From: Hyphobacterium sp. CCMP332
GTDB taxonomy: Bacteria; Bacteroidota; Bacteroidia; Cytophagales; CCMP332
DNA: 64,000 bases
Reading direction: 5' to 3'
NCBI GenBank assembly: GCA_014323545.1
Contig: CP058647.1
Span: 2,830,001-2,894,000, forward strand
The stretch's first letter is position 1, and every line of letters begins with the position of its first letter. The notes under the pieces were generated by a model, which saw nothing but the letters and a program-made list of their open reading frames with translations, was not told the origin of the DNA and did not search any database. A program made the translations under genes and the position numbers. This document shows, piece after piece, positions 57,221 to 63,838 of the stretch.

Positions 57221-58279
57221 ATGAGTGATCAGGAAAAATCAATTGTATTCATACCCGATATCAGCGGTTTCAGTCATTTTGTCAATAGCACAGCGATTTC
57301 TCATAGTGAGCACATCATTTCAGAACTGTTAGAGCTCATAATTGAACAGAATTCTTTGGGTATGGAGGTTTCAGAAGTTGAAGGGGATGCGGTATTGTTT
57401 TACAAGGAAAAACAAGTACCTGAGTTTCAACAACTGATTGAACAAGCAGAACAAATGTACATTGCTTTTCATGCGCATTTATTGCAATATGAAAAATACC
57501 GAATTTGTACTTGTGGAGCCTGTACCTCTGCTTCAAAATTAAGTTTAAAATTTGTGGCTCACTCGGGAGAACTTGGATTTTTAAATATTCAGGGGAAGAA
57601 AAAACCTCATGGAAACAATATTGTAATTCCTCATAGATTATTAAAAAATAACATTTCCTCTTCTTCCTATGTGTTACTTTCTGAAAGCCTTTTCACGAGC
57701 TATCAACTCGACGAAAATTGGCAAAAAGATCAATATGAATACGAAGGCACGGGGATTTTAAAATACTATTATCGCGATTTAAATTATTTAAATTCAAAAA
57801 TTCCCGAACCCATTTCGTTTAATCCACCCGACAGGATTGATAATCCGATAAAAGACAGCTTAATTATAAATGCGGATATCAATAATCTGATAGAGTACAT
57901 CGCCAATTTTTCATTTCGCTCAATTTGGCAAAAGGGCGTAGATCGCTTGGAATACAATCCTAATGAGGTCAATAGGCTGGGAACATCACATATCTGTGTA
58001 ATAAACAAAAAAGAATTTCAATTTGAGACTGTGGCCACTGATATTTCTGATCAACACAGAGTTATAGGTGAGAAGAACAAAAATCCTCCTTTTTTTAAGG
58101 AATTATTGAGCTATTACATTCTTGATCAAATGGAAGATGGAGTTAAATTAAGTGTCGAAATTCACTATTTTCAAAAAAATATTGTTTCCAGATTGATGAC
58201 ACCTATACTTAAAATGATTTTGCTTAAAAATCTTAGAAATAGTATTAAGTCATTAAAAAGTTATGCAGAAAATAATTAA
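57221..58279 (+). CDS. DUF2652 (cyclase-like) protein
   Basis: A 352-residue protein. The N-terminus resembles class III nucleotidyl cyclases, with FIPDISGFSHF (D13) and EVEGDAVLFY, then a region with CTCGACTSA, and a C-terminal SRPBCC/START-like part (around 215-345). DUF2652 proteins are common in Bacteroidetes and of unknown function; the cyclase fold may be catalytically altered, as only some metal residues are evident. It is 6 bp before the SDR gene, so they probably share a transcript. Confidence 0.85.
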   Translation: MSDQEKSIVFIPDISGFSHFVNSTAISHSEHIISELLELIIEQNSLGMEVSEVEGDAVLFYKEKQVPEFQQLIEQAEQMYIAFHAHLLQYEKYRICTCGACTSASKLSLKFVAHSGELGFLNIQGKKKPHGNNIVIPHRLLKNNISSSSYVLLSESLFTSYQLDENWQKDQYEYEGTGILKYYYRDLNYLNSKIPEPISFNPPDRIDNPIKDSLIINADINNLIEYIANFSFRSIWQKGVDRLEYNPNEVNRLGTSHICVINKKEFQFETVATDISDQHRVIGEKNKNPPFFKELLSYYILDQMEDGVKLSVEIHYFQKNIVSRLMTPILKMILLKNLRNSIKSLKSYAENN

Positions 58280-60836: not shown

Positions 60837-61214
60837 TTGAGAGCAGTTATATCAACCATAGCATCAATATACTTATTCTTTAACCTTGGTTTTGGAATAA
60901 ATCAGCATTACTGCATGGGACTATTGAAAGATGTTTCATTCGGTCACGAAAGCCATGAATGTTGCTGTGGAGAAAGCGAAATGATGGAGGGCTGCTGTAA
61001 AGACGTTCATGTTAGTCTTTCCATTGAGCATGACCAAATTCAAAACCATTTTCAAAGTATTGATCCTGATTGGAAATTTGAAAAGCTTGTTTTCATCTTA
61101 AGTGATGTTTTATTTTCTAAGAATAATGCTTTGGAGATACCTCAATATACAGGACCTCCTCCCAAAAAATCCAATTCGAGAATTTTTATTCAATCCCTGG
61201 TATTATACGCATGA
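60837..61214 (+). CDS. HYC_CC_PP-family protein
   Basis: A 125-residue exported or membrane-anchored protein. The hydrophobic start (MRAVISTIASIYLFF) is followed by HYC (24-26), cysteine clusters CCC (42-44) and CC (53-54) and a PPP segment (107-109), which give the family its name. The cysteine and histidine content suggests binding of copper or another soft metal, an inference. The start is TTG; no ATG fits. It is 52 bp before the HMA gene and 188 bp after the YciI gene, so it begins a new three-gene unit. Confidence 0.8.
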   Translation: MRAVISTIASIYLFFNLGFGINQHYCMGLLKDVSFGHESHECCCGESEMMEGCCKDVHVSLSIEHDQIQNHFQSIDPDWKFEKLVFILSDVLFSKNNALEIPQYTGPPPKKSNSRIFIQSLVLYA

Positions 61215-61218
61215 TATA

Positions 61219-61253
61219 AAATTTAAATATCTGAAAATCAAGTATTTAAATTT
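61219..61253. repeat. AT-only inverted repeat between the HYC_CC_PP and HMA genes
   Basis: AAATTTAAATA (61219-61229) pairs with TATTTAAATTT (61243-61253) perfectly over 11 bases, with a 13-base spacer. It contains only A and T, so the hairpin is weak; it may be a regulator site or chance in AT-rich DNA. Confidence 0.35.
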
Positions 61254-61266
61254 AAATTATATCATC

Positions 61267-61614
61267 ATGTATAAATCAATATTATTTTTCATTTTAGGTC
61301 TTTTTATTACAATTAATTCCTATTCGCAGGATAAAAAAATAATTGAAACAGCATTTAATGTCAGCGGAGTATGTGAAATGTGCAAAGCCAGGATTGAAAA
61401 TGCGGCTCTTTTAAATGGAGTTAAAAAAGTTAATTGGGACAAAAATTCCCAGACCTTGCATATCATCTACCGTAAGGATAAAGTGGAATTAATGGATATC
61501 CATAAGGCTGTAGCTGCTGCCGGACACGACACTTCAGAATTAAAAGCCAATGATGAAGCTTATAAAAAAATTCCTGCTTGCTGTTCCTATAAGGATGGAG
61601 TAAAAGTTCACTGA
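61267..61614 (+). CDS. Secreted heavy-metal-associated (HMA) domain protein
   Basis: A 115-residue protein: signal peptide (about 1-20), then an HMA domain with the metal-binding CxxC (C36EMC39) and the VKKVNWDKNSQTLHI strand. Near the end a second pair C105-C106 (IPACCSYK) could add a metal site. HMA domains carry Cu+ or other soft ions; location in the periplasm is inferred. An open frame upstream to 61102 overlaps the HYC gene, but the ATG at 61267 starts the signal peptide. The TonB receptor begins one base after its stop. Confidence 0.85.
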   Translation: MYKSILFFILGLFITINSYSQDKKIIETAFNVSGVCEMCKARIENAALLNGVKKVNWDKNSQTLHIIYRKDKVELMDIHKAVAAAGHDTSELKANDEAYKKIPACCSYKDGVKVH

Positions 61615-61615
61615 T

Positions 61616-63838
61616 ATGCGAATCTTTTTCTTATTATTTCTACTTGTGATTCTTTCACAGTCAGGATACACGCAGGAAATACTCAAGGGTAAAGTTGGCG
61701 GTGATTATGCAGAGGGAGGCAAAGGACCGCTTGCAGGAGCCAATGTTTTTTGGCTGAATTCAAAAATTCAAACGACTACAGATCCTGAGGGCTTGTTTGA
61801 AATTGAAAAACCTGATTCGGTGCGCTATCTTATTACAAGTTTTGTTGGTTATGAAACAGATACAATCGATACAAAAGGTAAAGATTTTATTCATAATCAT
61901 AAAATGCTTTCAGGCTTACTCGAGGAAGTTGAAATTGAACACAGAGTAGGAGGATTGGAGGTTAACACGCTTGACCCATTGAATGTCAGCTTGGTCAGTG
62001 AAAGGGAATTACAGAAAGCGGCATGTTGTAACCTGAGTGAAAGTTTTGAAACCAATCCGAGCATTGATGTTTCATTTTCCGATGCAATTACCGGTACACG
62101 TCAAATTCAAATGCTCGGACTTTCCGGTCCCAATATTCTTATTACCAGAGAAATGATTCCCGATCTCAGGGGAATCGGTGCTGTCAATGGATTGCAGTTT
62201 TACCCCGGCACCTGGATTCAAAGTATGCAGATAAGCAAGGGAAGTGGATCTGTTGTAAATGGTTTTGAAAGTGTTGTGGGACAAATCAACATTGAACTCA
62301 AAAAAGCTGAATCTGGCAAAAAGGCCATGATGAATGTTTATGGCAATGCAGGCTCGGCCATGGAATTCAATGGAGATGTCAGGTCTGATATTAGCAAGAG
62401 GGTAAGTACGGCATCCATGATTCAATTGCGAAATCTATCAATCGAAAATGATAATAATTCCGATGGCTTTCGCGACATGCCCCTTTCAAATAAACTGATT
62501 GCTTTAAACCGCTGGAAGTTTGATTGGGGTAAGGGATATTTTAGCCAGGTAGGTGTCAGAGCATTATTCGTTGATAATGAAGGTGGACAATTATCCGGAA
62601 AGATCAATGAAAACCACGGAGTATGGCGACTGAATCATATGACACAAAGAATGGATGTATGGGCAAAAACTGGAAAAATATGGCAAGGAAAACCATGGAG
62701 GAGTACCGGTATTCAATTGAATGGAACCTTCCACGAACAAAATTCTAATTATGGAATGAGAACCTACGATGCCCGACAGAGAAGTCTTTATTTCAATTGG
62801 ATTTATCAATCAATTATTTCCAATACCGCTCATGTGGTAAAAATGGGACTGAGTTATCAGCAGGATAATTTTAATGAACAAGTCGATTCAATAGATTTTT
62901 TGAGAGATGAATATGTGCCGGGTCTTTTTACAGAGTATACTTTTTTGCCAAATGATCGTTTTACGTTGGTAGTTGGACTTCGAGCGGATCACCATAATTC
63001 ATACGGTACTTTTTTAACGCCAAGACTGCATTTACGGTATGGCATTTTTGAAAAAACCACTATTAAACTATCCGCTGGAAGATCATTACGCACGGCTAGT
63101 ATTTTTGCAGAAAACCAACAAATTTTTGCTTCGGCTCGCGATATCAGAGTATTTTCTCAAAATGAATCAAGTCCCTATGGCCTTGATGCAGAAGTATCCT
63201 GGAACTATGGAATAAATCTGATTCAAAAATTTGAACTGGATTACAGAGAAGGCGCATTGATTCTTGATTTGTATCGTACAGATTTTGAGAATCAAATTGT
63301 AGTAGATTACGATCGAAGTCCACAGCAGGTATTATTTTATAATTTGAATGGGCGTTCTTATTCGAACAGTATTCAGGCCCAATTGGATTACGAATTGATC
63401 AACCGGCTGGACATGCGCCTGGCCTATCGCTGGTACGATGTAAAAACGCAATATCATTTTGACATTCTTCAAAAACCCTTGATTTCTCAACACAGGGCAT
63501 TTATCAATCTTGAATACAAAACAAGGAATTACTGGAGTTTTGATTGGACCCTCAACTGGAATGGAAGCAAGCGTTTGCCTTCAACCCAAAGTAATCCTGA
63601 ATCATTCAGGCTAAGAGCGAATTCACCAGATTTTTACTTAATGAATGCTCAAATTACCAAAACCTTTAACGAACGTTTCGACATTTATTTAGGATCTGAA
63701 AATATTTTAAATTTCCGTCAGTCGAACCCGATTATTTCTGCTGATGACCCTTATGGAGAATATTTTGATGCTTCCTTAGTTTGGGCACCTGTATTTGGGC
63801 GAATGGTATATTTGGGCGCTAGATTGAAATGGTTATAA
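61616..63838 (+). CDS. TonB-dependent outer-membrane receptor (probable metal-related)
   Basis: A 740-residue receptor: signal peptide (about 1-19), a carboxypeptidase-regulatory-like N-terminal module (about 22-105, as in Bacteroidetes receptors), plug domain (about 120-240) with C137-C138 in AACCNLSES and the QIQMLGLSGPNILI strand, then the beta barrel ending in an aromatic/hydrophobic strand (YLGARLKWL). It depends on TonB-ExbBD energy. No SusD partner follows, so it is unlikely to be a glycan-type Sus system. Substrate is inferred to be a metal complex from the two upstream genes. Confidence 0.88.
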   Translation: MRIFFLLFLLVILSQSGYTQEILKGKVGGDYAEGGKGPLAGANVFWLNSKIQTTTDPEGLFEIEKPDSVRYLITSFVGYETDTIDTKGKDFIHNHKMLSGLLEEVEIEHRVGGLEVNTLDPLNVSLVSERELQKAACCNLSESFETNPSIDVSFSDAITGTRQIQMLGLSGPNILITREMIPDLRGIGAVNGLQFYPGTWIQSMQISKGSGSVVNGFESVVGQINIELKKAESGKKAMMNVYGNAGSAMEFNGDVRSDISKRVSTASMIQLRNLSIENDNNSDGFRDMPLSNKLIALNRWKFDWGKGYFSQVGVRALFVDNEGGQLSGKINENHGVWRLNHMTQRMDVWAKTGKIWQGKPWRSTGIQLNGTFHEQNSNYGMRTYDARQRSLYFNWIYQSIISNTAHVVKMGLSYQQDNFNEQVDSIDFLRDEYVPGLFTEYTFLPNDRFTLVVGLRADHHNSYGTFLTPRLHLRYGIFEKTTIKLSAGRSLRTASIFAENQQIFASARDIRVFSQNESSPYGLDAEVSWNYGINLIQKFELDYREGALILDLYRTDFENQIVVDYDRSPQQVLFYNLNGRSYSNSIQAQLDYELINRLDMRLAYRWYDVKTQYHFDILQKPLISQHRAFINLEYKTRNYWSFDWTLNWNGSKRLPSTQSNPESFRLRANSPDFYLMNAQITKTFNERFDIYLGSENILNFRQSNPIISADDPYGEYFDASLVWAPVFGRMVYLGARLKWL

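Follow-up and report, generated by a model that had tools for sequence, protein, structure and literature searches.

A conserved HYC–HMA–TonB-dependent receptor module with invariant cysteine pairs in Bacteroidota and its possible role in copper handling

A small HYC_CC_PP family protein, an HMA-domain protein and a TonB-dependent receptor (TBDR), encoded in a row in Hyphobacterium sp. CCMP332, form a conserved module in which each of the three products has an invariant cysteine pair. The module was recognized in a stretch of 64,000 nucleotides (contig CP058647.1, positions 2,830,001 to 2,894,000), hereafter the window, and was followed across the phylum. The best explanation is that it is a TonB-powered copper-acquisition module working by periplasmic thiol hand-off, a reading to which we give a probability of about one half. 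The features of the window locus are as follows.

60837–61214, + strand: HYC_CC_PP family protein, 125 aa, small, exported and Cys-rich (NF047658; family alignment)
60906–60914, + strand: HYC motif, H24 Y25 C26 (sequence; alignment of relatives)
60960–60968, + strand: CCC of HYC, C42–C44 (sequence)
60993–60998, + strand: CC of HYC, C53–C54 (sequence; conservation count)
61267–61614, + strand: secreted HMA-domain protein, 115 aa (PF00403; homologue starts)
61372–61383, + strand: CxxC of the HMA domain, C36-E-M-C39 (46/46 neighbouring or fused HMA domains)
61579–61584, + strand: second HMA CC, C105–C106, in an LPxCCxY-type C-terminal tail (46/46)
61616–63838, + strand: TBDR, 740 aa, CC-plug family (CarbopepD_reg_2 and Plug)
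62024–62029, + strand: plug vicinal cysteines C137–C138, AACCNLSESF (64/64 relatives, 3/3 plasmid-borne, 0/12 sister family)

The intergenic gaps measure only 52 bp (HYC–HMA) and 1 bp (HMA–TBDR), so the three genes likely constitute an operon, of which the TBDR is the last gene. The operon is flanked by genes on the − strand, a YciI-like gene upstream and a SpoIIE-like phosphatase gene downstream. The preliminary description had reported three consecutive + strand genes with cysteine pairs in every product, and the genes and cysteines are exactly as it gave them. For the HYC gene, TTG is the sole usual start codon in frame, with an in-frame TAA 8 codons before it. The longest HMA open reading frame starts with GTG at 61102; the ATG at 61267 is preferred, as it gives a signal-peptide-like start and homologues begin with a signal peptide at the matching point. 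The HYC protein belongs to the NF047658 family (HYC_CC_PP; 49.8 bits, cut-off 28); it has a hydrophobic stretch at the N-terminus without a lipobox, and may be membrane-anchored, as the preliminary description put forward. The HMA product is likewise a PF00403 member (26.8 bits; cut-off 24.8) with its CEMC motif present. The receptor scores 37.2 bits for CarbopepD_reg_2 (cut-off 32.2) and 23.9 bits, exactly at the cut-off, for Plug (PF07715); the plug match and the alignment of its barrel to FepA/CirA structures (E 1e-9 to 1e-6) place it in the TBDR superfamily. In this 3.3-Mb genome the HYC gene is single-copy, and no close paralogue of the receptor was found. Elsewhere in the window, positions 57221–58279 encode a DUF2652 protein that contains the cysteine motif CTCGAC and at its C-terminus gives a weak match of the polyketide-cyclase-like type.

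Lack of conservation of the plug CC had been set beforehand as a finding on which the proposal would fall, and the pair proved invariant. HYC matches gathered from 296 genomes of the phylum fell in 91 genomes, and 100 surrounding regions were fetched. A receptor like that of the window was present in 31 of these loci, with the CC in all whose plug is present. A receptor profile was built from 19 receptors 33–50% identical to that of the window, and the same 296 genomes were searched irrespective of HYC. The scores were bimodal: 77 of the 296 genomes had a receptor scoring over 500 bits, and no other match exceeded 392 bits. The CC was found in all 29 previously unseen loci fetched from the strong class, so that overall it is kept in 64/64 receptors, and in 3/3 further receptors on plasmid records. 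In contrast, the weak class, a sister TBDR family, has the CC in 0/12 members and its own plug CxxC (NCNVCNTGDIHINGLEGPYT and alike). This sister family (L203–L213; L177 7887–10166), with NCNVCN or DCAVCG in the plug and without the CC, is common across the phylum. In L177 a member of it shares a cluster with HYC, HMA and an HMA-fused CC receptor, and comes immediately after them.

Several receptors of the CC family depart from the standard form. A third plug cysteine (ACCDLxGCF) is present in the CC receptors of L194, L196, L197, L200 and L216 (7944–10172); their HMA-like neighbours are without CxxC (GCSAD, VCCNGD) or missing, L194 having a YHS-domain-like protein instead. The apparent covariation of the third cysteine with CxxC-less HMA proteins comes from one clade and one plasmid copy and is not taken as proof. 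In L128 (9463–11716) a CC receptor is split into two open reading frames by an in-frame stop or frameshift, and is likely a pseudogene or an assembly error.

When aligned to the solved TBDR 9gbc, the CC lies just before the plug helix nLsESF, ahead of the strand leading to the apex loop. We take this position to be nearer the periplasmic half of the plug than the ligand-binding apices, and it would therefore suit a hand-off to HMA. The placement is that given by the sequence alignment; AlphaFold modelling of the whole receptor from 4 sequences gave a mean pLDDT of 51 with the plug at ∼25, the barrel strands being predicted at low confidence, and the plug modelled alone reached a pLDDT of 38.

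C137 and C138 are the only cysteines of the window receptor, and most relatives have few or no others. In the window receptor the pair is therefore no ordinary intraprotein disulfide. The vicinal cysteines could instead serve redox chemistry, as a vicinal disulfide or in thiol-disulfide exchange with HMA, rather than act as metal ligands. The periplasm is oxidising, vicinal disulfides are known to exist, and a TlpA/thioredoxin-like gene occurs in the L177 cluster; however, no other receptor operon was seen to hold such a gene, and the HMA CxxC, HYC and the copper pumps of the same operons all belong to metal-handling families, which makes a redox role improbable.

The HMA protein has a conserved pattern of its own: all 46 HMA domains neighbouring or fused to a receptor have the CxxC and a second CC 63–66 residues later. 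A separate HMA gene stands beside 40 of the 64 receptors, 7 receptors carry an HMA domain fused at their N-terminus, and one locus has both (46/64 in total); its position relative to the receptor varies, being upstream, downstream or fused. The fusions form two separate clades, L098, L124 (5394–8096) and L177 on the one hand and L185 and L187–L189 on the other, each with a support of 1.0. These natural fusions support a physical link between HMA and the receptor, and would put HMA on the periplasmic N-terminal side of the receptor. They also bear on the idea that the receptor is an ordinary siderophore receptor that has metal-type neighbours by chance. Its barrel does show weak similarity to FepA/CirA-type receptors, but coincidence can hardly be credited when the neighbours are conserved across many families and two clades have HMA–receptor fusions. 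In L064 (9276–10055) and L053, a gene between HYC and the CC receptor encodes a membrane protein in which HMA is fused to MauE (in L064, PF00403 and PF07291), possibly an inner-membrane partner.

HYC and the receptor also co-occur across the phylum. A significant HYC match is found immediately upstream of 45 of the 77 strong-class receptors, in the same orientation, and the genome-level co-occurrence has an odds ratio of 11.5 (p 3e-17, uncorrected for phylogeny). With an HYC profile built here, HYC was detected in 51 of the 64 receptor loci, and another 11 encode HYC-like small Cys-rich exported proteins; the resulting 62/64 is partly selected, as 32 of these loci were found via HYC or are the window itself. 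For loci found via the receptor alone, an HYC or HYC-like neighbour is present in 28 of 29. HMA was not found beside or fused to 18 of the 64 receptors, so the steadiest pair is the HYC-like protein and the CC receptor, with HMA as a frequent third. The three-gene system that had been proposed thus holds as a real and conserved module, although HMA is missing at those 18 receptors and HYC is not specific to the module.

This last point follows from the other HYC loci: HYC is found at the head of CusA-type efflux operons even more often than with the receptor. The 100 HYC loci include 45 with an RND pump that carries an AIGxxVD-type motif, and the RND proteins tested from HYC-headed operons matched TIGR00914 (CusA/CzcA) best; one such operon also holds HMBD and DUF3347 proteins. 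A P-type ATPase lies within 4.5 kb downstream in 3 of the 100 loci, one of which is also a receptor locus. HYC stands at the head of copper-type operons generally, and its body CC is kept in 46/46 receptor-linked copies and 72/72 other HYC proteins. A search upstream of 121 HYC genes yielded no shared regulatory site, only promoter-like TAnnTTTG and start-codon words.

The metal is most likely copper, as Cu(I), judging from neighbours and families, by which silver is indistinguishable. Each of the receptor operons L059 and L190 encodes a P1B ATPase with CPC and YNxxxxP motifs, which passes TIGR01511, a model of the copper type. The best-matching models for the HMA protein are CopZ, and the one relative of it with a solved structure is a domain of a copper ATPase. 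These observations make Cu(I) the likeliest ion. Against CopZ NF033795 itself, the HMA protein scores 31.1 bits, below the curated cut-off of 91. The same relay might serve a soft metal other than copper, namely Ag, Hg, Zn or Cd. MerT uses vicinal cysteines to handle Hg(II), and the HMA protein has a weak MerTP score, 24.5 bits and far under the cut-off of 180. Nevertheless, no mer genes were seen beside the receptors examined and the receptor-operon ATPases score best against copper models, so a metal other than copper is quite improbable.

Is copper brought in or fended off? Most receptor operons, including that of the window, have no pump. In the Haliscomenobacter plasmid pHALHY01, a CC receptor lies a few genes upstream of CusA/CzcA. 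COX1 was found in 283 of the 296 genomes; the module is present in G238, which has no COX1 match, and in Parabacteroides distasonis, an anaerobe, which suggests that supply of haem-copper oxidases is not its sole role. Another explanation is copper defence, in which HYC and HMA would be periplasmic buffers feeding Cus/CopA export and the receptor would belong to a copper-stress regulon, which it might serve by importing a chelate that protects the cell, for instance, or by trapping outer-membrane copper, rather than by feeding on copper. The HYC-headed efflux operons at 45/100 loci, the copper-type ATPases within the L059 and L190 operons, the pHALHY01 arrangement and the COX1-less G238 all fit with defence. 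However, TBDRs of known function import ligands, as is generally known (PMC8610252; PMC12914433), and most receptor operons lack a pump. We regard defence as rather unlikely, and retain copper acquisition as the preferred reading. Regulatory genes also adjoin some of these operons. In L215 (8383–12369), a Parabacteroides distasonis plasmid record, the HYC-like protein, CC receptor and HMA are followed by a factor of the sigma-70 family that may be a regulator dedicated to them, and two genomes have an AraC-type regulator next to the CC receptor operon (L059 9191–9781; L137 5218–5784).

Under copper acquisition, copper, free or chelated, would cross the outer membrane via the receptor, and the invariant vicinal thiols of the plug would hold Cu(I) in transit. 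The periplasmic HMA protein would then take Cu(I) from the plug by thiol exchange via its CxxC and second CC, and HYC, as an exported Cys/His protein, may buffer the copper or deliver it to a Cus/Cop pump or for the assembly of cuproproteins. This order of hand-off, from receptor to HMA to HYC as in the preliminary description, is inferred, and the relay itself is put forward as a hypothesis. Direction is its weakest point: a TBDR speaks for uptake, whereas operons shared with exporters would speak for a copper-stress role.

Few copper TBDRs have been described, and the entry of copper into the periplasm and its acceptor there are poorly known (PMC8610252; PMC12914433). OprC has been shown to import copper, which is bound by a plug CxxxM and a barrel HxM (PMC8610252). 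The CC receptors resemble OprC/NosA in being TBDRs with a plug cysteine for which copper handling is proposed or shown (PMC8610252). They are not members of that group: the plug CC has no Met at +4 of either Cys, and the family has no invariant Met. In addition, the periplasmic acceptor of OprC is not known (PMC8610252), whereas a candidate HMA acceptor is encoded alongside the CC receptors or fused to them. An OprC-like receptor with CxxxM-HxM has been proposed for copper uptake in Bizionia argentinensis (PMC11213822), and is of a different family because of that motif type. The recently described copper-importing TBDR family of the copper-responsive CrtA of Bordetella lacks any conserved Cys or Met, and PepSY_TM proteins come after it; it occurs mostly in beta-/gamma-Proteobacteria (PMC12914433). 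The present family is distinct from it, since its CC is invariant and the window receptor is last in its operon, so that no PepSY_TM gene follows; it also differs in belonging to Bacteroidota and having HYC/HMA partners.

The partner proteins have known relatives as well. CopZ/MerP-type metallochaperones share the ferredoxin-like HMA domain with CxxC; the window HMA protein differs from them in being exported, in its second CC 63–66 residues on, and in scoring far under the CopZ and MerTP cut-offs. The CusCBA/CusA-type RND operons of Bacteroidota likewise have an HYC family gene at the head and sometimes the same HMA type, with an efflux pump where the receptor would be. The NCBIfam TBDRs FCYXU, PUIUD and PCPU are similar in being named for a Cys/Sec motif; the window receptor had no match to these models, and the plug-CxxC sister family matches them weakly.

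In the open-access literature, no description of a copper TBDR/HMA system in Bacteroidota was found, which agrees with the preliminary description that this seems to be no named pathway. HYC_CC_PP was named in no open-access paper found, and searches on Cytophaga copper and on copper-stress transcriptomes returned nothing relevant. The receptor-chaperone module is apparently undescribed and is best placed with TonB-dependent metal handling. We tentatively propose that the CC receptors may be an undescribed copper TBDR family, in which a plug Cu(I) site on the exit path would hand the ion directly to a dedicated HMA domain, sometimes fused to the receptor. If true, this would define the periplasmic acceptor of a metal-ion TBDR. 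The hand-off is directly testable, because the candidate acceptor accompanies the receptor family, sometimes in the same polypeptide, and the relay hypothesis now has clear residues for mutation.
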